This document shows, piece after piece, positions 13,800 through 60,835 of a DNA stretch of 64,000 bases. The translations under genes were made by a program, and so were the position numbers. This DNA is from Rugalucina vietnamica (taxonomy: Eukaryota; Mollusca; Bivalvia; Lucinida; Lucinidae). The notes under the pieces were generated by a model. That model saw only the letters and a program-made list of their open reading frames with translations, was not told the DNA's origin and made no database searches. Position 1 is the first letter of the stretch, and every line of letters starts with the position of its first letter. The stretch spans positions 46,053,383 to 46,117,382 of the forward strand of contig OZ024879.1 in the NCBI GenBank assembly GCA_964017185.1. Reading direction: 5' to 3'.

Positions 13800-14405
13800 T
13801 ATCATTTGGCTGGGTTGTTCCCCTTTTAAAGGCGTTGAATTAACGTTTCTTTGAGGTTGTTGCCCTTTAAAAACGTTGAACTGACGTTTGTTGAGGGAAT
13901 TTGTCATTGTTTCGTGCTTGGGTGTTTGTAAGGAGTGCGAATTGGACATTTGTGTGCACTAGACTGAGTAGGTAAATGTATTGCAGCAACGAGTGCTAAG
14001 CACGAGTGCTTGTGTGCGTCTGACAGCTGCCAATTTCAGAATGTTGTCGTTTGGACCAGAGCTTGTGTTTGATGGCTGTGAACAGGATTACATAAATGCT
14101 GATCGACTTCAGAGAATCGTCAAGTTTATGGCTACTGGTTACCGTTCCGGCTGTTCCACTGGTGAGATGTTGAATGCCCTGATCGAAAGAGGGGTCGAAC
14201 CGGATGACCGTATTGTCGGGATATACAAAGTGAGTCCCTCTGATTCTATTTACTCCGTTTTGTTCAAGTTTACGGATGTGGCCGACCAAGTGGTTCAGTG
14301 GGCCCCCCTACACGTGGGCAAGTCAGTGTTCGAAACTATGAAGCTCAACGAACAAGTTATTAACGTTCGTGTACATTGGCTGCCTCTGTTCTTTGAAAAC
14401 TATCC
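13800..14405 (+). pseudogene. U1-leader LINE, copy 0: promoter repeats plus ORF1 N-terminal half
   Basis: It starts with two GGGTTGTTCCCCTTTTAAA-type promoter units. A leader ends in TTTCAG just before ATG 14,041. The following frame reads FDGCEQDYINADRLQRIVKFM, STGEMLNALIERGVEPDD, GIYKVSPSDSIYSVLF and VINVRVHWLPLFFEN, i.e. the N-terminal domain and the start of the RRM-like region of ORF1. Homology then stops at about 14,400. About 200 bp of leader including the U1 segment are missing compared with other copies. An apparent earlier ATG at 13,981 reads leader sequence. It is truncated and non-functional. Confidence 0.65.
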
Positions 14406-16443: not shown

Positions 16444-19400
16444 TTGTTTAGATGCAATCCCAGGGCCGGGCATCAAGGCAGTAAGGGCATGAAGATGCGC
16501 TTTATCATTTTACAGCTCTTTATCTACTTCTATATTAATCATGTGGCTACAGATTTAAGAAACAACTCCATTAATATAACATTTTATAGTGTGGCAAGAG
16601 CTATTGATATATTTCGAGAAACGAGAATTAGAAATCACTTCATGTGTAAACGCATTACTCCACCTCTCATGATTATCGAACGTAATATTGCTTTCATGAA
16701 GAATTTATTATTTAGTTTTCTTTCATTAATAGTGTCTCTATGGATCTATACGCTTATCGTATGTTGTGGTGACGTTGAAATGAATCCCGGTCCAAGTATT
16801 AGTTCAAGCACAAGTTCCAGCTCGATTTCAAGTGAAACCAGTTTATCATCACTTCCATATGATTCACATTTCAGTATATGTCATTTAAATATTCAAAGTC
16901 TTCTCCCAAAAATTGATATTCTCCAGTACGAAATGCAGCCTTTTGATGTTTTTGTTTTTACGGAGTCCTGGTTGAACATCGATATTGGGTCAAATGATCT
17001 AAAAATACTCAATTTCAATGAGCCATTTAGATGTGATAGAGAAACTAGAGCAGGTGGAGTTGCTATTTATGTTAAGGAAAGTATAACATGCAAACGTAGA
17101 CCAGATTTGGAAATTAATAATCTAGAATGTATATGGATTGAAATAAAAACACATGGTCATACACTTTTAATAGCGGGTATTTATAGGCCGCCGGACGCAC
17201 ATCAAAATTATTGGACTTGGATTTCTGAATCCGTTGATAGAGCAAAAAATACAAACATTTCGGATATCATACTAGTAGGGGACCTCAATAATGACTTGCT
17301 TACACCTTCGAAGTGTAAACATCTAAAAGAGTTAATAGCCAACTACGATTTTACTCAGTTGATAAACGAGTCTACACATTTCACAGAGCAATCCTCTACA
17401 TTAATCGATGTTATAATTACGTCAAATCCTAACATAGTCGTAGCCAGTGAAGTATGTGATCCTTTTGTGCCAAACAGAATGCGATTTCATTGCCCTGTCG
17501 CCGTAATCCTTTCATTCATGCAGTTCAAACCCCAGAATTATAAACGCCAAATATGGAAATACGAAGAGGCTGACTATAACAAATACCGACAAATTTTATC
17601 AGAAGCAGAGCTTTCTACCCTAGTTACCAATCCACTAGACGACGTCGATACTGTAGCACAAAAATTAAATAAAGTTATAATTTCGGCTGCAGAACAGTCA
17701 ATTCCTAACAAAATGGTCACCATACGACCTGCAGACCAACCTTGGTTACACAATGAAATAAGAAAGTTAATTCGTCAAAGAAAAAGAATACATAAAAGAG
17801 CGAAACAAGTAAACAATGAAATTATATGGAGCAAGTTTAGAAAAATAAGAAATAAAATTGTTAAAAAAATAAGAACTGCCAAATTAAGGCATGAACATAA
17901 AATTGCAATGAAATTAAAAGATAACACTACAGACATAAAAACTTGGTGGAAATTATCTAAAGAAATTTTAAATATCAACACCAAATCTGAAACAATACCT
18001 AATATAGAATATAATGGCAAACTATATGAAACTAATATTGAAAAAGCTGAAGCTTTAAACTCATTCTTCTCAAAACAATCACAGTTAAGTAAAGATGCTC
18101 CTATGCTACCCATGTATATTCCTCCCCAATACCCTCTATTAGAAATGGTGTATATAAGCTCACAAGATATCAGTGACATATTACGGCATCTTAACGTAAC
18201 CAAAGCATCAGGGCCTGATAATATAAGCCCTCGATTACTTAAAGAAGCGTCAACCGAACTATGTGGACCATTGAGTGATTTCTTTAATAGATCTTTACGC
18301 GAAGCAATATTTCCTCTTGATTACAAGAAGTCAAACGTAGTGCCAATCCATAATAAAGGCGACCGATCTCTACCGAATAACTATAGACCAATATCTCTTT
18401 TAAGCATTATAGGTAAAACCATGGAACGTTGTATTCATAAGTATTTATATAATTATTGTGTATCAAATAACATTATAACCCCATTTCAATCAGGATTCGT
18501 TCATGGAGATTCAACAACATACCAGCTAATTGATATGTATAACTCATTTTGTGAAGCAATAGATTCTGGTAAAGAGGTGCGTGTTGTTTTTTGCGATATA
18601 AGTAAAGCTTTTGACCGAGTTTGGCACGATGGCCTTCTGTTTAAATTAAAGAGCATAGGAGTTTCTGGTAGATTACTAAAATGGTTTAAAAATTATCTTA
18701 ACGATAGAAAACAACGGGTTGTAATAAATGGTTGTACATCTGAGTTTAAATTAGTTGAAGCTGGCGTCCCCCAAGGCTCTATTCTTGGACCGCTTTTGTT
18801 TTTGATATTTATCAATGATATTGTCCGAGAATTAAATTGCAATGTAAGACTTTTCGCTGATGATACCAGCCTTTATATAGTGGTCGAAAACCCTGTAACT
18901 GCTGCTAACATATTAAATAATAATCTGGGACGCGTGCACACATGGGCCGGTTTCTGGCTTGTGGACTTCAATGCAGCAAAAACAGAATCGATGCTTTTAA
19001 CACGTAAGAGGATTCATCTTATTCATCCTGATTTAATTATGAACAATACTATTTTAAAAGAAGTAGAAATACATAAACATTTGGGTTTGATTTTCTCTCA
19101 GAACTGCGGATGGCAAGCTCATATTGACGACATATTAAAAAAAGCATGGCAGCGTTTGAACATTATAAGAGCATTTAAATTTAAACTTGATAGGGCTTCT
19201 CTAGAACGGATGTATATATCATTTGTGAGGCCAGTTTTGGAATATGGAGGGCCTGTATGGGATAACTGTACCAAAGAAAATAAATTGAAAATTGAATCTG
19301 TACAGGTTGAGGCAATGAGAATTGTTACAGGAGCCACCAAATTATGCGGCGTTGAAAAATTATATGACGATACGGGGTGGGAAAAGCTTGCGACCAGACG

Positions 19401-19974
19401 CACCAAGCAGAAACTAAAGATTTTTTATAAAATGATACATGCAATCGGGCCAAACTATTTAAACAATCTTGTTCCTCCATTAGTCCAAGAAAATTCAAGG
19501 TACTCATTACGAAATGCAAGAAATGTAACAACAATTAAATGTAATTCTAACTTGTATTATGACTCTTTCTTACCCTCAACCATACGTGATTGGAATAATT
19601 TATCTGATGAAATAAGAAATTCGCAATCCTTCTCCATTTTCAAATCAAAGCTCAATGCTAATCGAGTCAAACCACCAGCATATTATAATTTTGGATTAAG
19701 AACACTACAGATTTACCATGCACGCCTTAGACTAGAGTGTAGCTCACTCAATTTCCATCTTCATAAGAGTAAGATTGTCGATTCTCCTCGTTGTAACTGT
19801 GGTGAACCTGAAACTACTAAACACTATCTCTTACAGTGTCCCCAATATAACATACCCCGAAATCAAGTGCTCAATGACTTTCTTCACATGCCCATTAAGA
19901 CCTTGCTAAGAGGCAATCCTACTCTATCTGTAAATGAAAATGAAGCCATTTTAACGCGGTTCAACTCTTTATAG
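16444..19974 (+). CDS. LINE polyprotein: 2A peptide, APE endonuclease, reverse transcriptase, zinc-binding tail
   Basis: An uninterrupted 1176-codon ORF. A hydrophobic N-terminus (about residues 84-107) leads to CCGDVEMNPGP; residues 114-117 are NPGP, the ribosome-skipping 2A signature, so the Gly116-Pro117 bond would not form. A Ser-rich linker follows. The endonuclease begins at about 138 (ICHLNIQSLLPK, FTESWL, AGIYRPP, VGDLNNDL). RT follows, with NYRPISLLSIIGK, FCDISKAFDRVWH, GVPQGSILGPLLFLIFIND and catalytic FADD at 804-807. A C-terminal CxC..H..C cluster starts at C1117. Such LINEs copy themselves by target-primed reverse transcription. Alternative Met codons (residues 16, 18, 85) exist. 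Intactness suggests recent activity. Confidence 0.9.
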   Translation: MFRCNPRAGHQGSKGMKMRFIILQLFIYFYINHVATDLRNNSINITFYSVARAIDIFRETRIRNHFMCKRITPPLMIIERNIAFMKNLLFSFLSLIVSLWIYTLIVCCGDVEMNPGPSISSSTSSSSISSETSLSSLPYDSHFSICHLNIQSLLPKIDILQYEMQPFDVFVFTESWLNIDIGSNDLKILNFNEPFRCDRETRAGGVAIYVKESITCKRRPDLEINNLECIWIEIKTHGHTLLIAGIYRPPDAHQNYWTWISESVDRAKNTNISDIILVGDLNNDLLTPSKCKHLKELIANYDFTQLINESTHFTEQSSTLIDVIITSNPNIVVASEVCDPFVPNRMRFHCPVAVILSFMQFKPQNYKRQIWKYEEADYNKYRQILSEAELSTLVTNPLDDVDTVAQKLNKVIISAAEQSIPNKMVTIRPADQPWLHNEIRKLIRQRKRIHKRAKQVNNEIIWSKFRKIRNKIVKKIRTAKLRHEHKIAMKLKDNTTDIKTWWKLSKEILNINTKSETIPNIEYNGKLYETNIEKAEALNSFFSKQSQLSKDAPMLPMYIPPQYPLLEMVYISSQDISDILRHLNVTKASGPDNISPRLLKEASTELCGPLSDFFNRSLREAIFPLDYKKSNVVPIHNKGDRSLPNNYRPISLLSIIGKTMERCIHKYLYNYCVSNNIITPFQSGFVHGDSTTYQLIDMYNSFCEAIDSGKEVRVVFCDISKAFDRVWHDGLLFKLKSIGVSGRLLKWFKNYLNDRKQRVVINGCTSEFKLVEAGVPQGSILGPLLFLIFINDIVRELNCNVRLFADDTSLYIVVENPVTAANILNNNLGRVHTWAGFWLVDFNAAKTESMLLTRKRIHLIHPDLIMNNTILKEVEIHKHLGLIFSQNCGWQAHIDDILKKAWQRLNIIRAFKFKLDRASLERMYISFVRPVLEYGGPVWDNCTKENKLKIESVQVEAMRIVTGATKLCGVEKLYDDTGWEKLATRRTKQKLKIFYKMIHAIGPNYLNNLVPPLVQENSRYSLRNARNVTTIKCNSNLYYDSFLPSTIRDWNNLSDEIRNSQSFSIFKSKLNANRVKPPAYYNFGLRTLQIYHARLRLECSSLNFHLHKSKIVDSPRCNCGEPETTKHYLLQCPQYNIPRNQVLNDFLHMPIKTLLRGNPTLSVNENEAILTRFNSL
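16750..16794 (+). promoter_or_regulatory. 2A ribosome-skipping signal
   Basis: Encodes LIVCCGDVEMNPGP. The invariant D-V-E-x-N-P-G-P is present, and the skip would fall before the Pro codon at 16,792. It separates a short hydrophobic leader from the endonuclease-RT protein. Comparable 2A sequences are known at the N-terminus of several non-LTR retrotransposon ORFs. Confidence 0.85.
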
Positions 19975-21582: not shown

Positions 21583-21668
21583 GGTGGGTTGTTCCCCTTT
21601 AAATTACGTCAGTTTAACGTTAATATGGATGGGCTGTTCCCCTTTAAAATAAGTTAATTAAACGTTGG
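21583..21668 (+). promoter_or_regulatory. Tandem promoter-like units of the U1-leader LINE
   Basis: Two ~44-bp units of the form GG(A/G)TGGG(T/C)TGTTCCCCTTTAAA followed by an ACGTTAATTTAACGT-like palindrome. They are seen also at 13,810-13,900, 28,216-28,300 and, as one unit, at 52,080-52,115. The position upstream of ORF1 and the TTTAAA box recall monomeric LINE promoters; activity is inferred. Confidence 0.45.
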
Positions 21669-21886
21669 TTATGTGCATTTCTTCATGTTTGGTGTTTGGG
21701 TGTTTGTTTGAATTAAAGCGAATTGGGCACTTTGGTGAATTTGAGGGAGTACGATAAATGCATTGCATCAACGAGTGCTAAGCACGAGTGCAAAGGTCTG
21801 GCTGACAGTTGCCTGCTTGACGAGCGGATGCACCGTCAGCGATATCGTAGGTGTTTGACATTGGCTTCATACAAGAAGTACCGGCA

Positions 21887-22007
21887 GTAAGCAAAAGCAT
21901 ACTTACCTGGTACAGGAGATACCGTGATCAAGGCGGTTCTCCTCGGTCAAGTATCGTCTCTATCTTCTTGATAGATTATTCTAACTTTCTTAGTTAGTGT
22001 TTTTCAG
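21887..22007 (+). promoter_or_regulatory. Candidate mini-intron in the LINE leader
   Basis: It starts GTAAGC after GGCA (GGCG in copy 2) and contains the U1-like segment. Then come a small hairpin (TCTATC..GATAGA), a TTCTAAC branchpoint-like string and GTTTTTCAG 13 nt before the ORF1 ATG. The acceptor-like end is conserved in copies at 28,627, 50,696 and 59,122. Splicing is a prediction from motifs only. Confidence 0.4.
21899..21956 (+). ncRNA. U1 snRNA 5'-domain segment in LINE leader (copy 1)
   Basis: It begins ATACTTACCTGG, the invariant U1 5' end that pairs with 5' splice sites. It continues through a U1 stem-loop I (ACAGGAGATACCGTGATCA ... GGCGGTTCTCCT), then GTCAAGTATCG. The loop-side strings CCGTGATCA and AGGCGGTT match invertebrate U1. 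The later U1 stem-loops and a canonical Sm-site context are not recognisable, so this is a fragment and not a U1 gene. Confidence 0.8.
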
Positions 22008-22020
22008 ACACACAGTCAAA

Positions 22021-22942
22021 ATGGCAGAGTATTTTTATGATGGTGAAGAGACAGCATTCATTAACACCGACCGCCTCCGAAAGACATTAAAGTTTCTGCC
22101 TACAAGGAGACAGGTATCAGTGTCGGCTGGAGAGCTTCTCAATGCTATTCACGCCAAAGGGGTGGAGCCAGACGATGTTGCAGGCATATTCAAGGTAGGA
22201 GCTTTTGATTCCTCCTTCTCCGTACAGTTTTTTCTCTTTTACGGATATAGCTGAACAAGTTAATGCCCTTCAGTGTCTGCACGTTGGTCAGCAAGTTTTG
22301 ATATTTTGAAAATGGACGAGCAGATTATAAACATACGTGTGCACTCACTGGCTGCCATTATTCTATGACAATATGATAATCAACGAATATTATCAAAATT
22401 TGGCGAGGTAGTGGGTGATATCAAGATGCTCAAGACTGCCCATGCAGACTCCGTCACCTTTGACGGAGTGCGGGAAGTGAGACTTAAGACTGGTGAAATT
22501 GGGAAACAAAAGATCTCTCATGTTATTAACTTTCTGTCTGGTCAGGCCATACTCCTGACAATCTCTGGACGTCCCCAGTACTGCCTCAAATGTAAATGTA
22601 CCGGTCACATTAGGAGCAAGTGCCCGGCTGCACCTGCCCCGAGTGGGGCCCTGACGCAGTCCGACTGAGCCTTCGGGCTTGGCCGGTGTGCCGACGGTCT
22701 CCCAGAAGGGAGATCAGGCCGGCGGGAGTGACTCCTCGACGCAGAAGCGGCAGGAGGATATGGACGAGACGTCCAAGGGCAAGAAACGTCCCTTGTACGT
22801 TGAGGACTCCTTTAGAACCCCTTCTAGGCCAGTCAGTCAACGCTGTCAGGTGGACTCGGGCGGGTTGCCAACAAGCAACCCTTTCGAGCACATCATGACG
22901 GTGGAGGACAATATGTCTCCTCGACCAAATACTAACAAGTGA
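22021..22942 (+). pseudogene. U1-leader LINE ORF1 (copy 1)
   Basis: ORF1 starts MAEYFYDGEETAFINTDRLRKTLKF. It has SAGELLNAIHAKGVEPDDVAGIFKV, then (after frameshifts at about 22,240-22,390) an RRM-like segment INIRVH and LSKFGEVVGDIKMLKTAHAD, VREVRLKT and ILLTISGRPQYCLKCKCTGHIRSKCP, a CCHC zinc knuckle. A Pro/Ser/Asp-rich tail ends at 22,942 in another frame (GGLPTSNPFEHIMTVED). The N-domain/RRM/CCHC order resembles ZCCHC3-like ORF1 proteins of Tx1/L1 LINEs, which bind the element RNA. Several frameshifts kill it. Confidence 0.7.
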
Positions 22943-27248: not shown

Positions 27249-27923
27249 TTAACATTAGTTCAATAGGCGTTGATTTTAAGCTACTCATTTCGTTATCGGG
27301 AAAATATCTAAACGGTGCAGAAATGTACTTTGTGAACTATATACATGTATACACTTGGCTGTGGGCATATTTATTACTAGTATTGGCTACTGTAAAACTT
27401 ATGAGTTTGAACTCGAATTTTAATTGCTCTTTATTCTTTTGTATTTTGAAACTTTGTGTTTCTTTCTTAGCATATCAGTTATGTAACTTGTGCCTTTGGC
27501 TTTTTAGTCGTTTCGAAATTACAAGTTTTCGGCCTTTAATATTTACAAGGCAAGTTTTGTCTTTTCGAAAATAAGTTTTCTCCTACATGTTAAAAATAGC
27601 TTTCGGCCGTTTTACTTTTTTGTGATTGTTGTTTTTCAGATATTTTATACACGCATAATGAGTTTTAGTATTTACTTATTGGCATTTCAATTATGCGACT
27701 AAAGAGTGTTTTAAATTGGATCTAAATCCGTTACAATTCAAACTCAGAATTTTGAGATCCATCATGAATATGGTTCTTTAAAACTCGAAAGAAAATTAAA
27801 AAAACACAGGGTAACTGAAATCAAACAAAGGCCAAAATACCTCGTTAGCGAATATGTTAAAAGGCCGAAACCCTATTATAGCGAATACCATAAGAGGCCG
27901 AAACCACAAGTTGCATTATGAAT
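27249..27923 (+). other. T-rich LINE spacer remnant and unassigned sequence
   Basis: The first part continues the LINE spacer after the TTAA element. A hydrophobic frame to 27,574 is probably fortuitous in T-rich DNA. After 27,600 I see short CGAAA-rich repeats (AGGCCGAAACC at 27,860 and 27,895) and nothing coding. Confidence 0.35.
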
Positions 27924-28513
27924 ACCGGGTGCTGTAGACTTTTTATTTATTTATTTGTTTATTTGCTCGTGACCTGCTATCAGATACTATTCTACTTTTA
28001 AAATTGGACATACTCTCTAAGATTGTACATTTGCTTATGTTTTGCTTATTACCCTGATTTAAGTATGCAAAAGAGGCATTACTGTCTCCTGTGAAATTGC
28101 CAAACACCGTTACTCAAAGGTAAAGAATGAGGCCGATGCCACGTTTATCTTTTATAAATTGGGCAATATTCTAGACATTTTAAAATCGCTGAAAGCAAGA
28201 AATTAATTGATAAGAGCGGGTTGTTCCCCTTTAAAATACGTATACGTAACGTTTTTAAGGATGGGTTGTTCCCCTTTAAAAAATGTTTAATTAACATCCG
28301 TTGTGGGTTTGTTTTCGTGTTTGGTGCTTTTTTTTGTACGACGGGCTAATTGTGCATTTTTGTACAGTTAACTAAGTCCGCTACATGCGTTGCAGCGACG
28401 AATGTCAAGCACGTGTGGCGGTGTCCGGCTGACAGCTGGCGTATGCACGGCCAGCGGCATCGTTTGTGTTTGAAATTTGCGCCGTTTAACACGTACCGGC
28501 GGTAAGCAAAAGC

Positions 28514-28572
28514 ATACTTACCTTGTACAGGAGATACCGTGATCATAGGCGGTTCTCCTAGGTCTAGTATCG
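28514..28572 (+). ncRNA. U1 snRNA 5'-domain segment (copy 2)
   Basis: ATACTTACCTTG then ACAGGAGATACCGTGATCA, GGCGGTTCTCCTAGG and GTATCG. The stem-loop I arms still pair. The preceding GGCGGTAAGC is a good 5' splice-site match. The following TCTATC..GATAGA hairpin is kept. Confidence 0.78.
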
Positions 28573-28629
28573 TTTTCTATCTTTTTCGATAGATATTTTG
28601 TCAAACTTTGTAGTTAGTATTTTTCAGAA

Positions 28630-38966: not shown

Positions 38967-41900
38967 GTAACAGAATGTAGTACACTATTTTGCAGTACAA
39001 GGTCAAACATGTTTTTTTCTTTCTTTTTTTTTTTAATGAAATGAAGTTTATCATGTTTATAGATGTACTTAAGTAACACACATATAGTTTCTCGTATTAA
39101 TAATAAAAGCAAGGGCCAGATTCCAAACCCTGCCCACAATATCACAAGGGAAAGCAGCACAATTTATAAGACTCACATGCAAGCAAACGCTACAAGGCAA
39201 AACAGCAGCTCTTTCCCAGCTCAGCTACCAATTACACCAAGCAACAAATTAGACATATGCAACAGCAAAGGGTAAAAATCAAAGGTAAAGCCAACAAAAC
39301 ACACATTAAACTTTAAAAATTCTAGCTTCACTTAGATACAGAGGCGTTCCTCTTATCAAACAATTAGCCCATTATATGTACTTTATAGTACAAATATTGG
39401 TTTAGGGGAATTGCATCCGTTTCCAAGAAGGTTTTGCTTTGTTACTGAACAGTTGATTTTTGTGATTGATGAAAATGGCAAAACACATGTAATTGAACAT
39501 TGTCTTGTCTCCCATTTTAGATCCCTCAAAACAGATGACCTCAACTTAAATGTTTTGGAACTTGACTTGTCGGAGTAAGTATCAGTAGATGTATAATTGA
39601 ACTATATCATTTTGTAGGTACATACTATACAGCATTTGGAATTTATACTGTGTTATGGCCTCCTAAAAATCGAGTCAGTTTTACCTGTTTTATAAAGCAA
39701 TAAAACCTTACAAAGACAAAACAATTAGTTATTGCTAGTCAACCTCCTGAGTTTACCAATCCATCTTACAGCCAGTGAATTAATCTGACATTAAGTACTG
39801 TGAGTGTCTCCTTGTGAATGTTGTACATGTTTTAAGGTATAACTTAATCATGATAATCATCTGATCATATGTATGAATTACAGGATTCTGCGTACTGGGG
39901 AAGATTGATTGATTGATTGATTGATGTTTAACGACGCGTCAACCCTAATGGGTCATTAGCGTCTAACAATTGTAAAATGCATAATTTAGTTCAGAGAAAA
40001 GGCAAAAAATATGGTAAGAATTATCAAAGTTATAAATAATTATTCCGCTAGATGAAAGATACAGTGATTAAAATGAAATGATAGAAATGGAGAAAGGTAT
40101 AAATATGATTTAAGTTAAAAATTTATATTTTGTTTAAAAGGTTAGTTCGTTTTAAAAATGACAAAATGCGTTCAACAGATACATTTTTGAACAAATCTTT
40201 CAAACTGTTACTTTGAAAGCAGGAACGGCGTACATCTATAAAATCAATGCATTCAAGCAGAAAGTGCTTGACAGTTAATTGTGTGTCACATCCAATACAT
40301 TGAGGTTTATCTTCTCGTTTAAGTAAATATGAATGTGTCAATCGTGTATGTCCAATTCGAAGACGAGTAAGAACAATCTCTTCCCGTCTCGAAAGTTTAT
40401 GAATTAATCTTGGTCGTTTTACATGAGGTTCAATTTCCTTCAATTTATTGTCATCTGCTCTGCTCCAAATTGATTGCCATTCATTAAAGACATACTCGTT
40501 GATAAAAGGTTTAAAATTGATAAAAGGAATTTTAAAATCTGTTTGTTCTAGGCTCAGTGATTCTTTTGCTTTCTTGTCGACTTGCTCGTTACCATATATT
40601 CCTACATGACTGGGAACCCAGCAATACACAATAGTTTTAAATTCAGAAATGCTATGATGTTTCAGCAATATATTTTGTATTTGTTGGTTTTTGGACATTG
40701 TATGGTTTAGGGCCTGAAGGACTGATAGAGAATCAGAGAAAATAACGAATTTGTTGTACGAGTTACAGTCATTAATGAAGTCTAAAGCTAAGTCAATAGC
40801 CTTAGCTTCTGCTGTGAAAATTGAAGAACCATCAGGTAGACGTAAAGTTTTGCAAGCGTCTTTGGAATAAGTAGCACAGCCTACTTTGTTATCTTCCTTT
40901 GAACCATCAGTATAAATAAAATGATAATCAGAAAATTGTGACTGTAGTTGGTGGAAATTTTCTTTGAGAAAGTGTGGATTTGATTCTGATTTTTTCCCTC
41001 TGTGAAGTGTCAAATTTACTGTTGGCTTTCTAATGCACCATGGTGGAATTTCAGAAACCGAATGTTTTTCTATTTTATCTTGTTTAATTTTTGCTGATGT
41101 TAAAAGTGGTGCTACTCGTAAACCAAAAGACCTGATAGCATTTGGTTTACTTTCATAACGTTGTAAGAGCTCGTCAGAAATGTATGGTGGGAAAGTTACC
41201 TTATGTGCAGGATTAGAGGGGTTTGCTGCAAGTCTGATGGCATACTGAAGAGTAAGTTTTTCTCGACGCAAATATAGTGATGGTTCTTCTGCCTCAACAT
41301 AGAGGCTCTCAACAGGTGACGTTCGAAAAGCCCCAAGAGCTAGTCTTAGTCCTTGGTGGTGAACTGTATCAAGCATACTCAGGTATGACTTTCTAGCTGA
41401 TCCATACACAATGGATCCGTAATCCAACTTCGACCGAATAATTGACCGATATAGCTGCAGAAGGACAGTGCGGTCAGCACCCCAGTCGGTATGCGATAAA
41501 ACCTTTAGTAAGTTTAATGCTTTTAGACATTTTGCCTTTAAATACTTGATATGCGGTATAAAGGAAAGCTTTCGATCAAATAGAACTCCTAGAAATTTAA
41601 AATCTTCAACCACTGGGATAAGAGATCCATATAAGTAAAGTTCAGGATCATCATGTACTTTCCGTAGCTGACAGAAATGTACACATTGTGTTTTCGACTT
41701 GGAAAATTTAAAACCATTATGCGAAGCCCACTTTTCTATTCTATTTATACACTGCTGTAAGTGTCTTTCAATAGTTCTCATACTTTTCGATCTATAGCAC
41801 ATGCAAAAGTCATCTACATACAATGATCCATCTGTTTTAGGATCCAAACAGTCCATTATGCTGTTGATCTTGATATTGAATAATGTTGTAGACAGAATGC

Positions 41901-50400: not shown

Positions 50401-50559
50401 GACAATGTACTTTTATATAACTGCCTGTTCTCTTATCATTCAAATGTGTACACATTTGTTATTTTCCACAACTATACTATCACATATATTTGAATTCATA
50501 TCACCTCATGTACATAGCCACGTTTTTTTTTCACTGATTTTATACTTAAAAACAAAAGC

Positions 50560-50617
50560 ATACTTACCTGGTACAGGAGATACCGTGATCAAGGCGGTTC
50601 TCCTCGGTCAAGTATCG
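50560..50617 (+). ncRNA. U1 snRNA 5'-domain segment (copy 4)
   Basis: ATACTTACCTGG through GTATCG, the same as copy 1 throughout by eye. It is followed by CTGTCATTTTTGATAG, where ATTTTTG would match an Sm-site core. The upstream GTAAGC donor is absent here. Confidence 0.8.
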
Positions 50618-51297
50618 ACCTTCTGTCATTTTTGATAGATTTTTTTCTTAACCTTGTGTTAGTTTATGTCCTAACCTTTGAGTTAGTCTATTTCAGTTAT
50701 GGAGTTCTTCTATGATGGTGACGAGTCGTCCTTCATTAATGCCGAGAGAATGAAGCGAACACTGAAGTTTGTGCCTAGCACCCGTCAGTCTACCACGTCA
50801 GCTGGAGAATTATTGCTTGCTTTACATGCTGCGGGGATCCAGCCTGATGAAATATAAGGCGTCTACAAGGTAGGACATTCTGATTCCTCCTTATCAGTCA
50901 TGTTCAGTTTCACAGATATCGCTGAATAAATGAGTTCAACAAACTTTCGACATAATGAAACTAGATCAACAAATAGTGACCATAAGAGTGCACTGGCTGC
51001 CTCTTTTTTATGACTCATTAATATTGAATGAAGTCCTTGCTAAGTTTTGGCAAAGTGATTGAAGCAAAATTATTAAAAACAGCACATGCTGACTCTGTTG
51101 CATTCGACGGTGTTCGAGAAGTACGTCTCAAAACCGATGAAATCATGAAACACCATATTCCACATGTAGTTCACTTTAGGTCGGGCCAAACCATACTTCT
51201 AACAATGTTTGTACGGTCCCAGTCTTGTTTGAAATGTAAGAGTACGGGACATATTAGGAGCAAGTGCCCTAAAACAAGAGGGGCTGGGAAACTGTAG

Positions 51298-52074: not shown

Positions 52075-52450
52075 CATTTGGATGGGTTCCCCTTTAAAAT
52101 ACGTTAAATAGACGTTTGTTGTGGTCATTTCTTCATGTTTGGCGCGTGGGTGTTTCTTAATTTAGCATTTCGGTGCATTTGAAGGAGTACGATAAAAGCA
52201 CTGCAGCAACGAGTGCTAAGCACGAGTACATAGGTCCGGCTGACAGCTGCCTGTTTTGACAAGCGGGTACACTGCCAGCGGCATCGTCCTTGTATGAAAT
52301 TTGTATCATACAAGAACTAGTGGCAGTAAGCAAGAGCATACTTACCTGGTACAGGAGATACCGCGTAGCCGGGGTCTCCGTCCTGTTAAGTATCCATTGA
52401 TCTATTATTTATTTTTTGTATTTTTATTTTTTTTTTATTTAGTTTACGTC
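52075..52450 (+). mobile_element. U1-leader LINE leader fragment with U1 segment (copy 7)
   Basis: One promoter unit (GGATGGGTTCCCCTTTAAAA), the GCAACGAGTGCTAAGCACGAG block and GGCAGTAAGC, then a U1 segment at 52,338-52,394 (ATACTTACCTGGTACAGGAG ... GGGGTCTCC ... AAGTATCC). The loop differs from other copies, but the stem arms still pair. A T-rich tract and a SINE follow. Confidence 0.65.
52338..52394 (+). ncRNA. U1 snRNA 5'-domain segment (copy 7)
   Basis: The 5' ATACTTACCTGG is unchanged. GGAGATACC/GGGGTCTCC still form a stem around a replaced loop. Confidence 0.7.
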
Positions 52451-52454
52451 CCTT

Positions 52455-53205
52455 TCCAGATTATTTCAGCTCATGTGAGACGGGCCAATCAGTAGGTGGG
52501 GCAAAAACGGGAGAACCCCGAGAAAAACCACCTGACACACCCGCAAGCAGAAAAAAGTACAAGTAGGCAAAGATCAGGAAAAGGCGCAATCAGAAAGACT
52601 CCCACTCCAAAAACCAAGGTGGGAAAAAAACAAACTAACAATCAGGTACTTATACCATGAAAATATTTCGTAAGCCGAATGAGCAGCTATTTTCCCAATA
52701 GGTGGCCACTCAGTTACCTTAACTTAACTAAAAATATGAAAACATACATAAGGCGCCAACAGCACAAAAATATTTTAAACACCAAGACATAAAACAAAAA
52801 GAACCACCACAGAAGTATCGACTTGGAACGATCAGTAACACAAAGTTACTGGCGGGTGTAAATCGATTTTACACGGCCGTAACCTCACCCTCAGCTTCTG
52901 CAGTGGTTCATAACATTTAGTTAGTTCTTCGGTCCTCGTGGTGAATCTCTAACTAGTAAATGAATCATCAAGAACAAACAAATAAATCATGATAAACATC
53001 CTGATGAATCAAAAACCAGGACTCACAGATTCAGTGAGCTGCCCGACGATGGAGATCCCTGGGCGCCAAATAACTTACTAACTCCGGAGCTAAAGAAAAA
53101 CAACAGTTGGACCCCGGTTGTCTCACATGTTGCCAGAACGGGGCTCGAACCCACACCAGTCACAGCGGTGAGATGATCAAATGGTTAAGTGCGGTAATGA
53201 TCTAT
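52455..53205 (-). mobile_element. tRNA-derived SINE split by a dispersed repeat
   Basis: Minus strand: the head with B box (GGGTTCGAGCCCC, 53,140-53,152) lies at 53,110-53,205 and the 3' part (CTCACATGAGCTGAAA) at 52,455-52,555. Between them, 52,560-53,105 is mostly the repeat also found at 30,105-30,450 and 39,100-39,300 (GACTTGGAACGATCAGTAAC). Confidence 0.5.
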
Positions 53206-53209
53206 TTAT

Positions 53210-54235
53210 TTATATTACTAACTATTCAGTTAGACTATTTCGGAATGTCGTCTAGAATCGTTTTGTTCTAGGGGGATGAATCCAACTTCATTGATGAAAA
53301 ACAGCTACAGTTGACGATTAGGCTATCGCCACTATCACACAGCCACACTAGTTATTACCATATGTTCCAGGCTCTGGAGGATGCCGGGGTCAGGCCGAAC
53401 AGTATCAAGGGTCTCTACAAAGTGAGTCAAAACGACTTTGATTTTTCACTTTTACGAAGATGAACCTTATGGAAAAGAAGGTCATTGGGCCTGGGAAATG
53501 CAAGTTCAGTGTTACGTCAATGACAGAGCAAACAGTACGTATCAATCAAGGTGCACTGGCTACCATTGTTTTACAATGATCTGTTGTTGAAAGCTATCTT
53601 TTGATATTATGGAGAATACTTGATATAGGACTGTGTAAATCGTCATATGCACCTGTCTGTGATTAACGGTCAACGCGAGGTGTTATTACGTACTGATGAA
53701 GTTCATAGAGATTCCCTCATCTTGTAAAGTTAGGGAGTGGCCAATCTATTCTGTTAACTATGCCTGGTAGACCGCCTTTATTTCAAATGTAACAATCTGG
53801 GTCATACTAGAAAAGACTGTTCGGCCAAAAAGTACAGTGTTGTGTTAGAACCTGCTCAGCCGTCTGGGTCTGGTTCACCAGTTGCGCGTCATGTTTCCCA
53901 AGCTGCCCCTGGGTTGGCTGTGCCTCCGTCGGAAGCGGAATCCGTGCCGGCACCTGCGCCTGAAGGCGCTTCTGTTGGTGCGGGGGACGCTCCCCAACCC
54001 CAAGATTTGGGGAGCGGATACTCGGACGGCTCGGTGGACACGCCTGGGACTCAGGAGCCCCTGGAGTCGTGCGATTCGCAGAAACGAAAAGGTGACTAAG
54101 ACGACGACTTTTTTTACACCTTATAGGACGGCGAAGGTGAGAGCAAGTTCTCCTGCCATTCACCTTCCGTTGTCCCAGGGGTATCATGCCTTACTTAATG
54201 AGTTAACCCCTCCGACGCCGAAGCCCAAGTAATAA
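53210..54235 (+). pseudogene. U1-leader LINE-related ORF1 (copy 8, diverged subfamily)
   Basis: A diverged leader (CTAACTATTCAGTTAGACTA) is followed by ORF1 pieces: DESNFIDEKQLQLTIRLSP, MFQALEDAGVRPNSIKGLYKVSQNDFDF, IKVHWLPLFYND, REVLLRTDEV and FKCNNLGHTRKDC (one knuckle Cys missing). The Pro/Ser/Glu tail is open to 54,099 (EPAQPSGSGSPVARHVSQ). There is no U1 segment. A possible ORF2 follows at 56,141. Confidence 0.6.
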
Positions 54236-56140
54236 ACTCATGAATAACAACATGGACCGGATAACGGACTTACCCGACATGGAATATGGGAAGGACCCCG
54301 ATTTTGTAAAACGAACCCGGACCGAAATACCGATTATGATACTGGAATACGATTTCGACTATAAGGCAATGGATCTTTTTGCCATCGCCTGTTTTATAGA
54401 ATCATTTCTTGTAAAACCTGTTATTTTTTCATTTGTCATGTACAAACATTTTATATTTCACCACATTGGTGTTTTTTATTTTAACACGCGTTCATACATG
54501 TACAAAATTTCGTTCACTCATGTTAAATTTTACCTGGGTCGTGCATTTGAGTTATTTGGTATAACTGTCAGCATAAAACTGTCTTACACTCAACTCAGTA
54601 TTGATAACGATCTGATTTTATACTACACTGTAAATTATTGGCTTAACATTATCTACCTACCTGTAGTGACAAATATTAGGTTTACAGGTCAGCCGCGGTA
54701 TCCTGTCGTGTTGATACTTTTGGTTTACAATAATGTTTTCCAATAACAATAATCTATTTTGAGGACGAGCTTTTAATAGAACACCAATAGGTAAATTAGT
54801 AATTTGGAAAGTATAACACTTTTGGAGAACGAATTGCATTCATCCATATTCTAATAGAGAAGTGGTTACGGTGATGTGCTAGGAATCCGTCAGACCAAGG
54901 TTCGAATCCGGGTATGATCTTTTTTTTCTTCCAAAAAAAAAAAAAAAAAAAAAAAAAAAACTAGATCGGCGACAACTTAAACGAAGCATTTTTCTTTTTC
55001 ATTTTTCTCGTTCTGTGCGTGATTTTTATAAACCGATTTATTCATGCACCGACTATCTTGGACAATCGGCTCCTTTCGCGCATCATGGCAAGACGGCTTC
55101 GCTGCAGCGAAGAAAAAAATGCAAATCGCCGGGAACTTTTCATTCCAAAACAAAAAACACTATCCATTTAAGGCTTCTTCTGTAATTTTTAGCTCAACAT
55201 AAAAAGACATTTTTCATATTTTGTATTAATGCTTGCATAACACGCATGTCACATAGTACTTATTCACACATTGTCATTTGCCCTGGCATTTTGTTGCACG
55301 TTTCATTAGATTTTTGTTTCTTATACAGCAATATGTGGCTGTTGTTGATTGAATTTATTAAAAGAAAGAACAATAAAAGAATAAAATACCAAACTTATAA
55401 GCAAGAACACACACACGTATACAAAACAAACAAACAAAAACATTGAAAAAAATCAGAACTGGGGTATAATATTATATCATTCTTTATTATACATAAAAAA
55501 TTCCGATGTTTATGTTTATCATTCTCTGTTCACAAACTTTAGAAATTATAATAGCGTCACCAGAAGTCACCAGACCTGTACCTTCTTCGATAAAATACCT
55601 TGATTTTACACCTTATTTTAATACTGTATTGGAAAATTGGCAACTGTGCAGTAGTGCACTAGTATTTGACTTTTCACATGTATATACTTTGATAATCGAA
55701 AGATTGAGGTTTTTGAAATGTAACGGGTTGACTTTCGCGTTATTGTGTTTCTTATTATTTGTCTTGCACATTCCTTGTTTTGATAATTTTGCTTCCCTCA
55801 TACAGTTTTTGACCATAGGCATACTTACGTGCAATTTTGAAAACTTAGACTATCAACAGCAAGTTTTTACTTTTTTAAAGATCTGTTGTGCGGCGACTTT
55901 GAAACAAGTCTCAAATTTTAAAACTTAGTTGTTCGATGATTCTGAGACTAATTCTGATTTGTTTAAAACTAAGTTGTGCTTCGATTCTGAAACAAATTTC
56001 GATTTTGTTTAAGATTCTCTAACATGCTTTTAGTTTTCTAAAACGTATTTGTTCTAATAGTACCATTTTACATTCGTACTCACCTTGTTTTTCCTTCCTT
56101 AGATACTTCGGCCTTAGGATTTCAAACACAACAAATCATA
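54236..56140 (+). other. T-rich ORF1-ORF2 spacer with a tRNA-like insertion
   Basis: Long hydrophobic frames (54,240-54,746 and 55,506-55,928) read T-rich spacer and match no domain I know. They occupy the same position as the spacers at 22,943 and 61,500. A tRNA-like retrosequence interrupts at about 54,850-54,960. Confidence 0.35.
54850..54960 (+). mobile_element. tRNA-derived retrosequence with A28 tail
   Basis: AAGTGGTTACGGTGATGTGC looks like a tRNA D-arm region, CTAGGAATCC like an anticodon arm of a Ser-type tRNA, and GGTTCGAATCC is a B box. A short spacer and 28 A (54,933-54,960) follow. The acceptor stem is not convincing, so it is not a functional tRNA gene. Confidence 0.55.
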
Positions 56141-57340
56141 ATGAATCTTAAGATAGCATCATTAAACGTGAATGGGTTTAGATCTAAGTTAACCCAACAA
56201 TTGGTAAAGGACTTAGCAACTAAGAATCAAATTGATATTATACTTTTGCAGGAAACTTTTACTGATTAATATTTAATTGGCGAAATCTATTGAACAAGAT
56301 TTTAATTTGAGTAATAGATGCATATGGAATTTCAGTAAAACTGATTCATGCGGTGTTGCTATTCTCTTTTTAATGAGACCATTTGTGTAGATCAATTTCA
56401 GACTGACATATTTGGAAGATTAATAAGATTGGATATTTCTGTTGCTGGTTTTCCCAATTTTAGACTTGTAAACGCTTACTTTCCGAACAATTCAACCGAA
56501 CGATTGGATTTCATTCAAAACTTGTCGCAACATTTATGTGGAGCGAAAAACTTGATACTTGGAGGTGATTTTAATTTTGTTTTAGATCCAAACTAAGATA
56601 AGCTTGGTGGCAATTTGGATAAGGGGAAAGTTGGTTCTAAAACTTTTAAATCTGTCATGGAAATATTCAACTTGATTGATGTTTTTCAGCATTACATCCC
56701 CGTAAACGTGATGTAACTTGGATGCTAAAGAATATTATGAATTATGAAATGATTGGCACTAGACTTGATAAGATTTTATGCTTCATTGATTTTGAAAGAT
56801 TACGACACAATACGTACCTTGCTCTTGTTCTGATCATAATTACATTGTAATGAATCTAGGTGGTAATACTGAAGCTGCTGCATCGTTTGGCAAATCCTAC
56901 TGGAAGTTTAATGATTCGTTACTTGATGATTCTGACTTTGTGTCCGCTTTCGAACGTCTTTGGAAATTTACATCGTGTACTGATTCAATTTCTTTACCTT
57001 GGTGGGACTGCATGAAATAGAATTTTAAAACATTTTGCATTGATTATGCAAAATCTAAGAATAAACATATTTTTGGCGAATTGAAGTCCCTTAGAAAGCA
57101 ATACAATTTATTGGATTTTAAGCATGGACTTGAAACTTTTGGATGAAATTTGAAATCTCTTTGGAAATGTACAATTATACATACACAATGAAAATCCAAC
57201 CAGGCATTTGTTTTCAAAAAAGAAGCTCAAGTAGGTAAATCTAAAACTGCGGTCGCTGTGTGGGATATGCCTTTCATGTACATATTCTAAAATACTTTTC
57301 TTTTTCAGACTGGCTTGGCCGTCTGAATGCAGATGGTGTT
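56141..57340 (+). pseudogene. Tx1/L1-like LINE ORF2: endonuclease and linker
   Basis: From ATG 56,141: MNLKIASLNVNGFRSKLTQQ, IDIILLQETFTD, then stops. It continues FRLVNAYFPNN, NLILGGDFNFVLDPN, KTFKSVMEIFNLIDVF and GTRLDKIL, all hallmarks of L1/Tx1-type APE endonuclease. The post-EN linker is recognisable (SYWKFNDSLLDDSDFVSAFERLW, FCIDYAKSKNKHIFGELKSL). RT is missing, cut near 57,340 by the foldback element. Same strand and order as ORF1 copy 8, so the two may be one element. Confidence 0.75.
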
Positions 57341-57354
57341 TATTTTGTAAAAGG

Positions 57355-57945
57355 ACAAGGGCATTTAACGCCTGATTTTGGCCTCAGATTTTGCTTAAAA
57401 ATAAATTTTGGAATTTAGGTGAGAAAAACTATTCCTTAAAACAGCCATATTTCTCCTCTATTAAAAACAAGAACAACTATTTCATTTATCCTACAAGCGT
57501 TGCCATGGCAATGCCCAGAAGAACCATTGATAGAGCACATTCTGCACTTTTTGGTCTATTTTTGACCATTTCTGAACACACTTTTTAATTTTTAAGTGCC
57601 AGCCCACACTCCGAACAAAATTATACCTTGTACACAATATCTCTGGATGATACTTCATAATTATTTCACAATGAGAATTTGTTCGTCGCGTGGGCCGGTA
57701 GTTGAAAATGATGTTGAATGGTGAAAAATAGAACCAAAATTGCAAAAAAGTGATATTTCTATGCTTTTCGGAGCGTTCCCATGGCAACATGTGTAATTTG
57801 AATGTGATAGTTGTGCTAGAGTATATAAGCAGTGACCTATACCTGCTATTTGCAATACGTTTCTCCTCAAAATTCCAAAATTCAGTTTTTTATCAACATA
57901 TGAGGCCGAAATCAGGCCTTAAATCCCCTAGGCCTTTGTAAATTG
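57355..57945. repeat. Foldback element with X-box-like sites in both arms
   Basis: The left arm starts GCATTTAACGCCTGATTTTG; the right arm read on the minus strand starts GGGATTTAAGGCCTGATTTC. Homology continues (GGCCTCA, AATTTTGGAATTT, then GTTGCCATGG and TCTATTTTTxACCATT) to a centre near 57,640. GTTGCCATGGCAA (57,499-57,511) and CCCATGGCAAC (57,778-57,788) are mirror counterparts. No coding. Confidence 0.65.
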
Positions 57946-59048
57946 ATTGTAAGTACTAACCATTTGTATATTGAGTCAGACTTAACCTGCAAACGCAACG
58001 TTACCATACTTTTCGTTTAACAAGGGCCTCCTTTTTTCATACATTGCAATCTCGCTCTCTGGAGAACCCGAGCCTCCGCAAGCAGAGTGCGCGGTTGTAG
58101 TTTCATGTCCTTCTAGTCTCTTAAGTAATGAGCGTTTATATCTCCCTGGTCTATATTAAAAAGAGATAAGAGCTATATTTGCTTTGCCCCCTCCTGGCTA
58201 TGTACGGTATACTTTGATCCCGCATATAATCATTATTATTGTACATATAATATAACATTAATACACACATTTATGTATGAACATCGTACAGCAATCCAAT
58301 ATAACATGTTTACCTTGATTTTATATTACCCATATATAAACATTTTTTAAAATATTTCAAGTTCTGCGTCGTCGTCGTACAGGCTCCTTTTAAGTGAGCA
58401 CTGGCTCCTTTGTCACTCCTAATCGAGTGACAGACGAGACAGTGTTCGCCTTTGTTCCCATTGTAAAGTATTGTTTCTATTTGGTTTAATACAGAATTCA
58501 ATATTGCACCGGACTTCGGTCTCCTCGCCATCGCCTTGAGCCTCGGACAACATGTTGTACGACGCCCTTGGCGGTTGCCAGGTTACCACTATAGGACAGA
58601 AACTTCCCGCCCACTTATGAGTTTTGATTCTTTAAATTTGCATGTAAGTTTAATTTATAATTTTCCTTAGTATAAATATTTGCAGTAAGTCTACTCACTG
58701 CTAACACGCAAGTACGACACTTTTATAAGGTATTAGGTTTGTAAAAATGCAACGCAAACATTTTATTGTTAAATAACGTATCGTCATAGTATACGTTTAA
58801 GGGTTCAGTTGCAATATAAAGTTCAAATCTATCCATTTCTGATTCTTCTTTCCTATAAATAATGTAATGTTATTGCTCTATCTAGGTCTTTTGCAGTTTT
58901 CTTTTTTTTTCTATCTCGGTGTAACTAGGTCTTTATAAGGTTCAAAAATTGTATATTTTTTTAAAAGGTGTCGGCCGTGTGGGACACTTTACACCTCACC
59001 GGTTTCTTATTGTACATAGGAAATATTAAATTTATATGAAAAATAAAA
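57946..59048. other. Spacer with one unassigned minus-strand frame
   Basis: 58,310-58,531 minus encodes MARRPKSGAILNSVLNQIET..HCLVCHSIRSDKGASAHLKGAC. It lies in a locally GC-richer patch and could be a 5' exon. No domain is recognised and no splice partner is supported. Confidence 0.25.
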
Positions 59049-60835
59049 AAGGCGGTTCTTCTTAGGAAGTATCCTTTCTTATTTTCATAATAAATATTTC
59101 TAACTGGTTTAGTATTTTTCAGTTTACCATGGCTAACACCGCGTACTATTATTAGGGTAACGAGACAAGCTATATCAATGGTGATCGTCTGCAGCGTACG
59201 CTTAAGTTCGTGCCTAGGCGACGTAACAGCAAGGCCTCAGCTGGGAAAATCTTTAATTCGTTAGCGGCTCAACAGACTGGACCTGAAGACGTTGAAGGGG
59301 TATACAGGGTGAGTCAGCTCGTTAATTGCTTCTCAGTTCAATTTGGATTCGAAGACACGGATATTCGCGTGGCATCTATGAAAACAATATCAACTGGTGG
59401 AACCGAATTTGACATTATGAAACTAGACAAACCAGTAGTCTGACTTAGGGTGCACTGGCCGCCCCTCTATTATGATAACCTCTTAATAAATGAGATTTTT
59501 AAAGGCTTCGGTAAAGTAATGAGTGTTGTTTCTTTGCGCACGGCGCATGCTGAATGTGTGACGTTTAACGGAGTCAGAGAAATTCGCCTGAAACAGATGA
59601 GCTGCATAAGCAGAGAATACCTCATGTAGTTCATCTTCCTTCAGGGCAGACTATACTAGTCGCAGGGTACCCACGCTTTTGTCAAAACCAAATTCCAGGA
59701 TTTTTCCAGGACTTTTCCAGGCCAGATGAGTAATTTTCAAGGTCTGATCACAACAAAATTCCAGGACTTTTCCAGGATCGTCAAATTTATAACTCGCAAC
59801 AAGAAACAGTTTTTCTTATCTGAAACAGCAGACCTCGGTAATTGGGAGTACATACATGTGATACCTCCCTCATCATCAGGGAGACTCCAGGAAATGAGCC
59901 ATTAAATTGGCCGAAATTCTTCTAAAATATACCTATTTTCCAAGCAAAATTCAAAATCTCCCTGAAATGAATCAGGAAGTTTCCTAAATATCCTATGCAT
60001 TTTTCAAAAACCTCCCTGAAATGAGAGAAAAATCTCCCTGAAGCTCCTTTTCAACTCATCACATGTATGGGAGTAAGGATTTGACTTTGAACGTTCTTGA
60101 CTTTGAGAAACTATGTTTAAACAAACCTTTTCTCGAAATTCGAAAACACATCCACGTTAACTTTGATCCGTGTGTATTCGGACTCCCTCGGCCAAACCGA
60201 TTATTTCCCTTGTTTGGTTGGGTATGAAAGCCCCATCCCAGCTGTATATAAGACGGTACTGCAAAAAAGACCGGAATATAGCGTCGCGCCCGAAAATATG
60301 ATCAACAACGATCGATATTACCTATTTTATTGTTCACTTGTTCGCCGCTTTAAATCTTACACTTCTTTCTGGGCCTGACATTTCCAGGGCAAACCATATT
60401 CCCGGACGATTCACGGAAAAATGATGAAAATTACAGATTCCAGGACTTTTCATGACCGGGAACACCGTTTTACTAATTCCCGGACCTTTCCCGAATTCCC
60501 GGTAGCATGGGAACCCTGTAGTCACTATGCAGGGTAGACCACCATATTGTCTGAAGTGTAGAACTGTTGTCATACCCGTGCTTATTGCCCGAAAAATAGA
60601 TTAGCATCGGTTCCGGCACAAACCAGTTGTGAACCTACTCATGCCCCGAACCCAACCCCGGGCTCGACTGGTGGGTCGACAGACTCCCACGATGAAGACA
60701 ATTCCTCCGCCAGTCTACGTTCAACGACGAAGCGTCATTTGGAGCAGGAAGCAGACGACCCGGACTTCATACCGCCTAACAGGCCAGTGAGGCCCCTACC
60801 GTCGGTGGCCGGCCTCCACTTGACGTTTCCAACAG
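59049..60835 (+). pseudogene. U1-leader LINE ORF1 (copy 9), split by a TIR element
   Basis: 59,049-59,074 keeps the 3' half of the U1 segment (AAGGCGGTTCTTCTTAGGAA). TATTTTTCAG ends at 59,122 and ATG is at 59,129. ORF1: NETSYINGDRLQRTLKFVPRR, GPEDVEGVYRVSQL, LRVHWPPLYYDN, GKVMSVVSLRTAHAECVTFNGVREIRL. It is cut at 59,663 inside the ILVTM/GRP block and resumes at 60,525 with GRPPYCLKC and a Pro/Ser tail to about 60,835. Stops and a frameshift are present. Confidence 0.65.
59663..60518. mobile_element. 856-bp TIR element in ORF1, 6-bp target duplication
   Basis: The ends are CAGGGTACCCACGC and its partner GCATGGGAACCCTG. The flanks are TAGTCG (59,657-59,662) and TAGTCA (60,519-60,524), one mismatch. 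Removing it restores ORF1 homology. The interior has repeated CCAGGACTTTTCCAGG. CAGGG termini recall hAT elements, but a 6-bp duplication does not fit the usual 8. Confidence 0.65.

Follow-up and report, generated by a model that had tools for sequence, protein, structure and literature searches.

The window analysed here is a stretch of 64,000 nucleotides of Rugalucina vietnamica DNA (C11:46053383-46117382, in a genome of 1.09 Gb in 47 contigs), in which sequence resembling the 5' domain of U1 snRNA repeatedly stands before the leader and ORF1 of a LINE, always on the forward (+) strand. Direct reading places such U1-like heads at 21899, 28514, 50560 and 52338 and a 3' half at 59049, as the original prediction had stated, and direct reading, the Rfam U1 model (RF00003) and shuffled controls agree that they are real. 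The segment ATACTTACCTGG occurs without mismatch at 21899, 50560 and 52338 and with one mismatch at 28514, and with up to two mismatches allowed it has 13 matches in the window against 4.2 expected, a number reached in 0/100 shuffles. Aligned with the U1 gene on the same contig (C11:45929024), nt 1-26 are identical in copies 1 and 4 and unchanged in copy 3, while copy 2 retains 25/26. RF00003 scored 34.9 bits (E 3.6e-5) at 50560, 32.1 bits (2.3e-4) at 21899 and 28.7 bits (2.3e-3) at 28514, all short of the 69.5 bits set as the family's threshold, as is expected of sequence comprising just the 5' third of U1, and 52338 and 59049 gave no match at E<=1 in the window Rfam scan. The U1 model thus recognises three of the heads, and none of them qualifies as a full-length U1 snRNA gene or pseudogene (28.7-34.9 bits vs 69.5).

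The copies share one layout. Copy 1 consists of U1 nt 1-47, from which 3 nt are lost at the insertion point (21899..21942; RF00003 and alignment with the C11 U1 gene), which we read as the 5' target flank together with a presumed 13-bp target-site duplication, then a LINE 5' leader with a CTAAC...TTTTTCAG block (21943..22020) and an ORF1 with broken frames and a CCHC knuckle in the six-frame translation (22021..22939). In copy 2, U1 nt 1-47 lack 2 nt at the insertion point (28514..28558) and are followed by the leader (28559..28629) and ORF1 from 28630, and in copy 3, U1 nt 1-47 lack 3 nt (50560..50603), with the leader at 50604..50698 and ORF1 from 50699, the frames of both ORF1s being broken. 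Copy 4 carries U1 nt 1-26 and then an altered stem, CGTAGCCGGGGTCTCC (52338..52379), followed by a decayed LINE body (52380..59048) that is probably one element holding foreign repeats, with an endonuclease piece at 56141-56491 (53% identity, 7 stops) and the 3' end motif at 58964. At 52338, as in three open-ORF copies outside the window, the hairpin departs from U1 in its loop and its 3' strand, so that this head, contrary to the original prediction, is not a normal stem-loop I. The segment is, as proposed, U1-derived, fixed in place before ORF1 and part of the LINE copies. Copy 0 (13803..14041) joins U1-flank-like sequence straight to TTTCAG/AATG of an ORF1, the U1 head and the leader being absent.

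The element has two ORFs. ORF2 (P0002) is open across 1187 aa and matches Pfam RVT_1 (124.6 bits), Exo_endo_phos (40.3) and zf-RVT (36.7); possessing both an endonuclease and a reverse transcriptase it belongs to the LINEs of the APE-endonuclease type, and its best PDB match is L1 ORF2p at 237 bits, with the R2 chains at about 69 bits. ORF1 (P0003) is open across 330 aa and contains a directly read CCHC knuckle (CLKCKTVGHTRKDC); it had no Pfam match, and its PDB matches over the knuckle were weak (E 0.017 and above). Between the C11 copies 45930257 and 45962115 the ORF1 proteins are only 58% identical (185/318), whereas most 200-nt bins of ORF2 DNA are 94-99% identical, and therefore ORF1 has been exchanged as a module. 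Two other LINE reading frames in the window, at 16444-19971 and 40126-43836, stay open over 1176 and 1237 aa and encode an endonuclease and a reverse transcriptase. A local family of ORF1-only genes under the U1 promoter was also considered and was ruled out by the open ORF2 of copies outside the window.

The bases before the U1 segment had been counted as part of the element; instead they correspond to the upstream flank of U1 genes. An uninterrupted U1 gene, C6:21501497, has an upstream flank homologous to 5/6 LINE copies tested. The flank of copy 1 (21588..21898), the presumed U1 promoter, matches it by BLASTN at 74% over 210 bp and the promoter of C11:45929024 at 102/131; that of copy 2 (27920..28513) matches the C6 flank at 81% over 543 bp plus a second piece; and that of copy 4 (52086..52337) resembles it in several short pieces and agrees with the C11 promoter at 98/132. 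Copy 3 had no match to the C6 flank and is not U1-like beyond about 10 nt upstream of its head. By eye, the sequence just before that head (50550-50560) resembles the LINE's own ORF1-ORF2 spacer. In three LINEs outside the window (45930257, 45962115 and 45979173) the 130 nt upstream are identical (130/130) to those of C11:45929024, a U1 gene whose end lies about 1.07 kb short of the first of these LINEs, and the agreement of the remaining copies with the C11 promoter ranges from 94/142 to 109/131. The flanks of six other U1 loci match none of the LINE copies tested. Judged by these comparisons, the U1 segment and the hundreds of bases upstream of it are better explained as target DNA. Chimeras arising by template switching during LINE reverse transcription, as in U6-L1, would also place U1 sequence 5' of LINE sequence, yet the upstream flank of a U1 gene is absent from U1 RNA, U1 nt 35 onward follows a LINE 3' end, and such an origin calls for heads without any U1 flank, an appearance that only copy 3 has, so that we consider it hardly credible.

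On the 3' side, in the C11 stretch near the window, a LINE ends in ...ATATAAAA / ...TTTATGAAATATAAAA and the very next base is U1 nt 35; from there U1 nt 35-164 are identical at 130/130 positions and pass into the 3' flank of a U1 gene, the whole match covering 904 nt at 99.3%. The same arrangement recurs within the window, where a LINE 3' end (GGTGTCGGCCGTGTG...ATGAAAAATAAAA, 58964..59048, found by the 3' end motif search and by alignment) is directly followed by AAGGCGGTTCTTC, a remnant like U1 nt 35-47 with one change (copy 5, 59049..59061), and then by the leader of another LINE (59062..59128) with an ORF1 of broken frames from 59129. The original prediction named this half-site but did not mention the LINE 3' end that adjoins it. 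The 3' junction at U1 nt 35 was thus seen twice, once in a true U1 gene and once at 59049, and at 59048/59049 a LINE seems to have entered the head of another, presumably older LINE at that U1 position. At the 5' end, the flanks of 45930257 and 45962115 are identical from 651 nt upstream through +42 of U1 +1 and diverge exactly after the stem end TCTCC, the equivalent of U1 nt 47. As the 5' flanks stop near nt 47 and the 3' flanks start at nt 35, a duplication of about 13 bp is probable, the two kinds of junction being seen in different copies and the other ends being N or decayed.

Together, the two kinds of junction, the fixed position, the U1-type flank and the kinship with U2-targeting elements described below lead us to propose, with a probability of roughly 0.9, that the U1 segment is the 5' target flank of an APE-type, L1/Tx1-like LINE that inserts site-specifically in U1 snRNA genes between nt 34 and 35. 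The endonuclease would nick the U1 gene between these nucleotides, in the loop of stem-loop I, and the LINE RNA would be reverse-transcribed at the nick in a target-primed manner, its 3' end being joined to U1 nt 35 and its 5' end to U1 near nt 47, with nt 35-47 (AAGGCGGTTCTCC) probably duplicated, as the LINE of the C4 U2 genes duplicates 12-13 bp. A new copy would then have the U1 promoter and roughly the first 47 nt of U1 immediately upstream. Transcription of the LINE probably starts at this promoter, in which case its RNA would open with about 40-47 nt of U1 and continue into the LINE. Since the 5' flank would restore the target site, a later LINE could insert before an older one and take over its promoter and head, and 59049 would be the remnant left by such a later insertion. 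The original prediction had held the segment to be built into the LINE and not a U1 gene serving as target, a conclusion contradicted by the flank held in common with the C6 U1 gene and by the LINE 3' end that enters U1 nt 35-164.

The heads themselves are not plain copies of the target. None of the nine heads found in the genome is identical to U1 nt 1-47: four lack 2-3 nt at the insertion point and five have an altered stem, and because 0/9 heads equal U1 nt 1-47, some head sequence may be carried along by the LINE. The altered stem CGTAGCCGGGGTCTCC was found at four places with up to two mismatches, all on C11, the fifth copy being more diverged. The intact site of the U1 gene, ATGAAGGCGG, is kept in 0/9 heads, and the one head known to be hit (59049) had retained AAGGCGG; we infer that it is the heads whose site is intact that are hit, thereby losing their promoter. 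The GATCA loop is lost in 5/9 heads, including three in C11 open-ORF copies, and shortened in the other four, which weakens the suggestion that the leader recruits U1-70K.

Genome-wide, the first 25 nt of U1 occur at 18 places with up to two mismatches, the reversed control pattern giving 0 matches; nine of these are true U1 genes (three on C1, four on C6, one on C12 and one on C11) and nine are LINE heads. All nine heads lie on C11 within about 190 kb (45.930-46.118 Mb), on one strand and beside a true U1 gene, and at this threshold no U1-headed copy was found outside U1 loci. Rescanning the C11 stretch with up to four mismatches returned the identical ten C11 places, in a sequence in which 61382 of 257000 bases read N and may hold further heads. 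With 42 of 25304 candidates of the host genome scored with RF00003, at least 22 matches exceeded the cut-off, 21 of them full U1 genes; in the 22nd, C11:45917951, U1 nt 35-164 follow the end of a LINE. A tandem array on C16 (0.684-0.702 Mb) contains 12 U1 genes over the cut-off; in the one gene of this array that was read, stem-loop I is changed and the LINE target site is absent.

The clustering of all heads within some 190 kb on one strand is also what a single ancestral U1 insertion multiplied by tandem duplication of the locus, with no continuing specificity, would leave behind, and 45930257 and 45979173, identical across all 6126 nt compared, may be segmental duplicates and not separate insertions. 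Yet the exact junction is common to copies whose ORF1s are 58% identical and whose sequence is partly exchanged, a LINE sits at the same U1 position within the head of another LINE (59048/59049), and relatives in U2 genes and in shared repeats mark the family as target-specific, which makes duplication improbable as the whole explanation.

The relatives extend the case for site-specific insertion in U1 genes, those in U2 genes showing an equivalent layout. Searching the genome with the element's own endonuclease gave at least 95 matches among the 150 of 313 candidates that were scored, with four identical matches on C11, one of 86% on C17, about a dozen of 64-85% spread over other chromosomes, and a series at about 40% along 8.88-9.15 Mb of C4. 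In this C4 region (L050, L071, L073 and L075) U2 snRNA genes form an array that contains many Keno-like LINEs, several of which have an open ORF2 of 1173-1175 aa, and one insertion-free U2 unit was read there. At the 5' junction, U2 nt 1-48 are followed by the LINE, and 5-6 kb beyond it a LINE 3' end is followed by U2 AGTATCTGTTCTT / AGTATCTGTTCTTATCAG; the two junctions probably belong to one copy, with a duplication of 12-13 bp. The search of genome contigs for relatives also found one locus (L074) on a contig assigned to the bacterial MAG of a symbiont of Taylorina, which is a lucinid bivalve. This contig encodes a 66% identical LINE whose 3' end joins U2, and since it holds a LINE in a U2 gene it must be host DNA. 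More distant relatives of the LINE protein occur in Patella, and none of the 106 stretches of viral contigs that fit the pattern encodes a relative. The U1 LINE is accordingly kin of the U2-targeting elements, a kinship resting on these U2-inserted relatives.

A further set of sisters is dispersed. The LINE 3' end motif has 62 matches genome-wide at up to two mismatches against 14 for the reversed control, 37 of the 62 having two mismatches, and most of these 37 may be chance. The 25 ends with no or one mismatch comprise three on C11 and 22 elsewhere, of which 21 were read, one C15 end being left out, and 0/21 continue into U1. This absence rests on direct reading of the junctions, as an ungapped 20-nt U1 probe had six mismatches at 59049 and also six at one dispersed end (L065) and so cannot tell a decayed site from chance. 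Seven of the 21 lie in a repeat (GTTAGGGGACC) present at 217 places genome-wide at up to two mismatches, three in a related repeat (GACAGAGGACC), three in a third repeat (GATAGTACAATCC) and seven in other sequence, and one is tailless, L069, where the tail is unrecognisable and the flank hence uninformative. Sister LINEs in at least three shared repeats (L051-L070 and L048) are therefore also site-selective. The two dispersed copies with their 5' ends read are flanked by duplications, GAAAGACAG on C17 and ATAGTAAGTTAGGG on C7, and the U1 head is absent from both ends. In a reverse transcriptase tree of 43 sequences the two U1 copies group together (support 0.97) and join the dispersed C17 copy (93.5% identical) and P0004 (94.0%) with a support of 0.99, the inner order having 0.31, while the identity to the U1 copies is 73.8% for a lucinid U2-LINE and 55.1% for the C4 U2-LINE of the same genome. 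Taken with the targets, the tree suggests that U1 targeting is likely a recent change within a family that has U2 and repeat targets.

These observations also bear on whether the leader carries the U1 5' domain by inheritance, a LINE having captured U1 nt 1-47 and the promoter once and kept them as a functional mimic. All heads occupy one fixed position ahead of ORF1, LINEs whose ORF1s differ greatly have the altered stem CGTAGCCGGGGTCTCC in common (four places), and the LINE begins with AAGTAT, which is complementary to U1 nt 1-6. Nevertheless, the promoter tracks the U1 gene of the locus rather than LINE descent, the corresponding point of U1 is where a LINE 3' end is found, the dispersed sisters on C17 and C7 begin without U1, and all heads were found at a single U1 locus; we hold such inheritance to be very unlikely. 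A built-in segment is also at odds with the genome-wide distribution, the very outcome that the original prediction had named as refuting: the segment occurs in nine LINE copies of one locus, and none of the 21 dispersed ends runs on into U1.

The leader itself has features that may relate to its position behind U1. A CTAAC...TTTCAG block resembling a 3' splice site lies just 5' of the ORF1 start and is conserved in nine aligned leaders, from U1 as well as dispersed copies. The leader might hold a mini-intron running from GTATC to TTTTTCAG, but the donor-like GTATC is missing in the two dispersed relatives, and no donor is common to all leaders. No ribozyme family that would indicate an HDV-like ribozyme at the 5' end appeared among the three Rfam matches of the window at E<=1. 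Fold prediction paired 5-6 of U1 nt 1-6 with the LINE in 6/8 heads, which are kin and hence not independent, and the same pairing arose in 0-25 of 500 shuffled leaders; of the two heads without it, one has a changed U1 5' end and one is decayed. The folding energy clearly beat that of shuffled leaders in only some copies (14-286 of 500 shuffles were as stable), and the pairing is suggestive only. The predicted pairing of U1 nt 1-6 with the first bases of the LINE in these six heads nonetheless weakens the proposed role as a splicing decoy. One tentative and rather doubtful scenario is that a LINE lineage targeting U2 or repeats switched to U1 and then adapted its 5' end, so that AAGUAU would lock the U1 5' end in a helix around stem-loop I, the structured leader would stop the hybrid RNA from acting as U1, and the loss of the cut site in the head would protect a copy from displacement by the next insertion.

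Elements that home to multicopy RNA genes offer several parallels. R2 inserts in multicopy 28S rRNA genes and is co-transcribed from the host gene promoter, and it differs from the LINE described here in using a restriction-like endonuclease in place of an APE-type one, in keeping with the PDB scores given above (R2 chains ~69 bits, L1 ORF2p 237). SINEUs carry an snRNA-derived head at their 5' end, which is part of the SINE, whereas here the head is target flank. For snRNA genes, a 2015 report names only Keno and Utopia (U2) and the DNA transposons Dada-U1 and Dada-U6 (PMC4640811). Keno, an APE-type non-LTR element of U2 genes in the same account, likewise leaves the promoter and the snRNA head upstream and inserts near the 5' end of the gene (PMC4640811). 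It differs in targeting U2, the element here inserting at nt 34/35 of U1 and failing to lie in U2 as its relatives do, and the likeness to Keno is judged from these U2-inserted relatives and not from reference sequences. Utopia shares an snRNA target and tandem insertions, U2 beginning at nt 39 downstream of the Phytophthora insertions (PMC4640811), and is set apart by its restriction-like endonuclease and its other snRNA. Dada-U1 targets U1 snRNA genes of zebrafish and differs in being a DNA transposon with a DDE transposase and a 6-bp duplication at another U1 site (GCGAAT/GCGAAC) (PMC3706591, PMC8869645). The literature searched contained no LINE or other non-LTR retrotransposon of U1 genes, and one may be described in Repbase or in subscription papers, which lay outside this search.

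A LINE in U1 genes would add a target to the few snRNA-homing mobile elements, and it indicates that an element can persist on few U1 genes (at least 21 full genes, with 42 of 25304 candidates scored). Splicing depends on U1, and copies that silence U1 units are therefore a cost that the host must tolerate, here at one locus. With U1-, U2- and repeat-directed sisters in one genome, one dispersed sister differing from the U1 copies by only 6.5% in its reverse transcriptase, it could be asked which endonuclease residues set the target.
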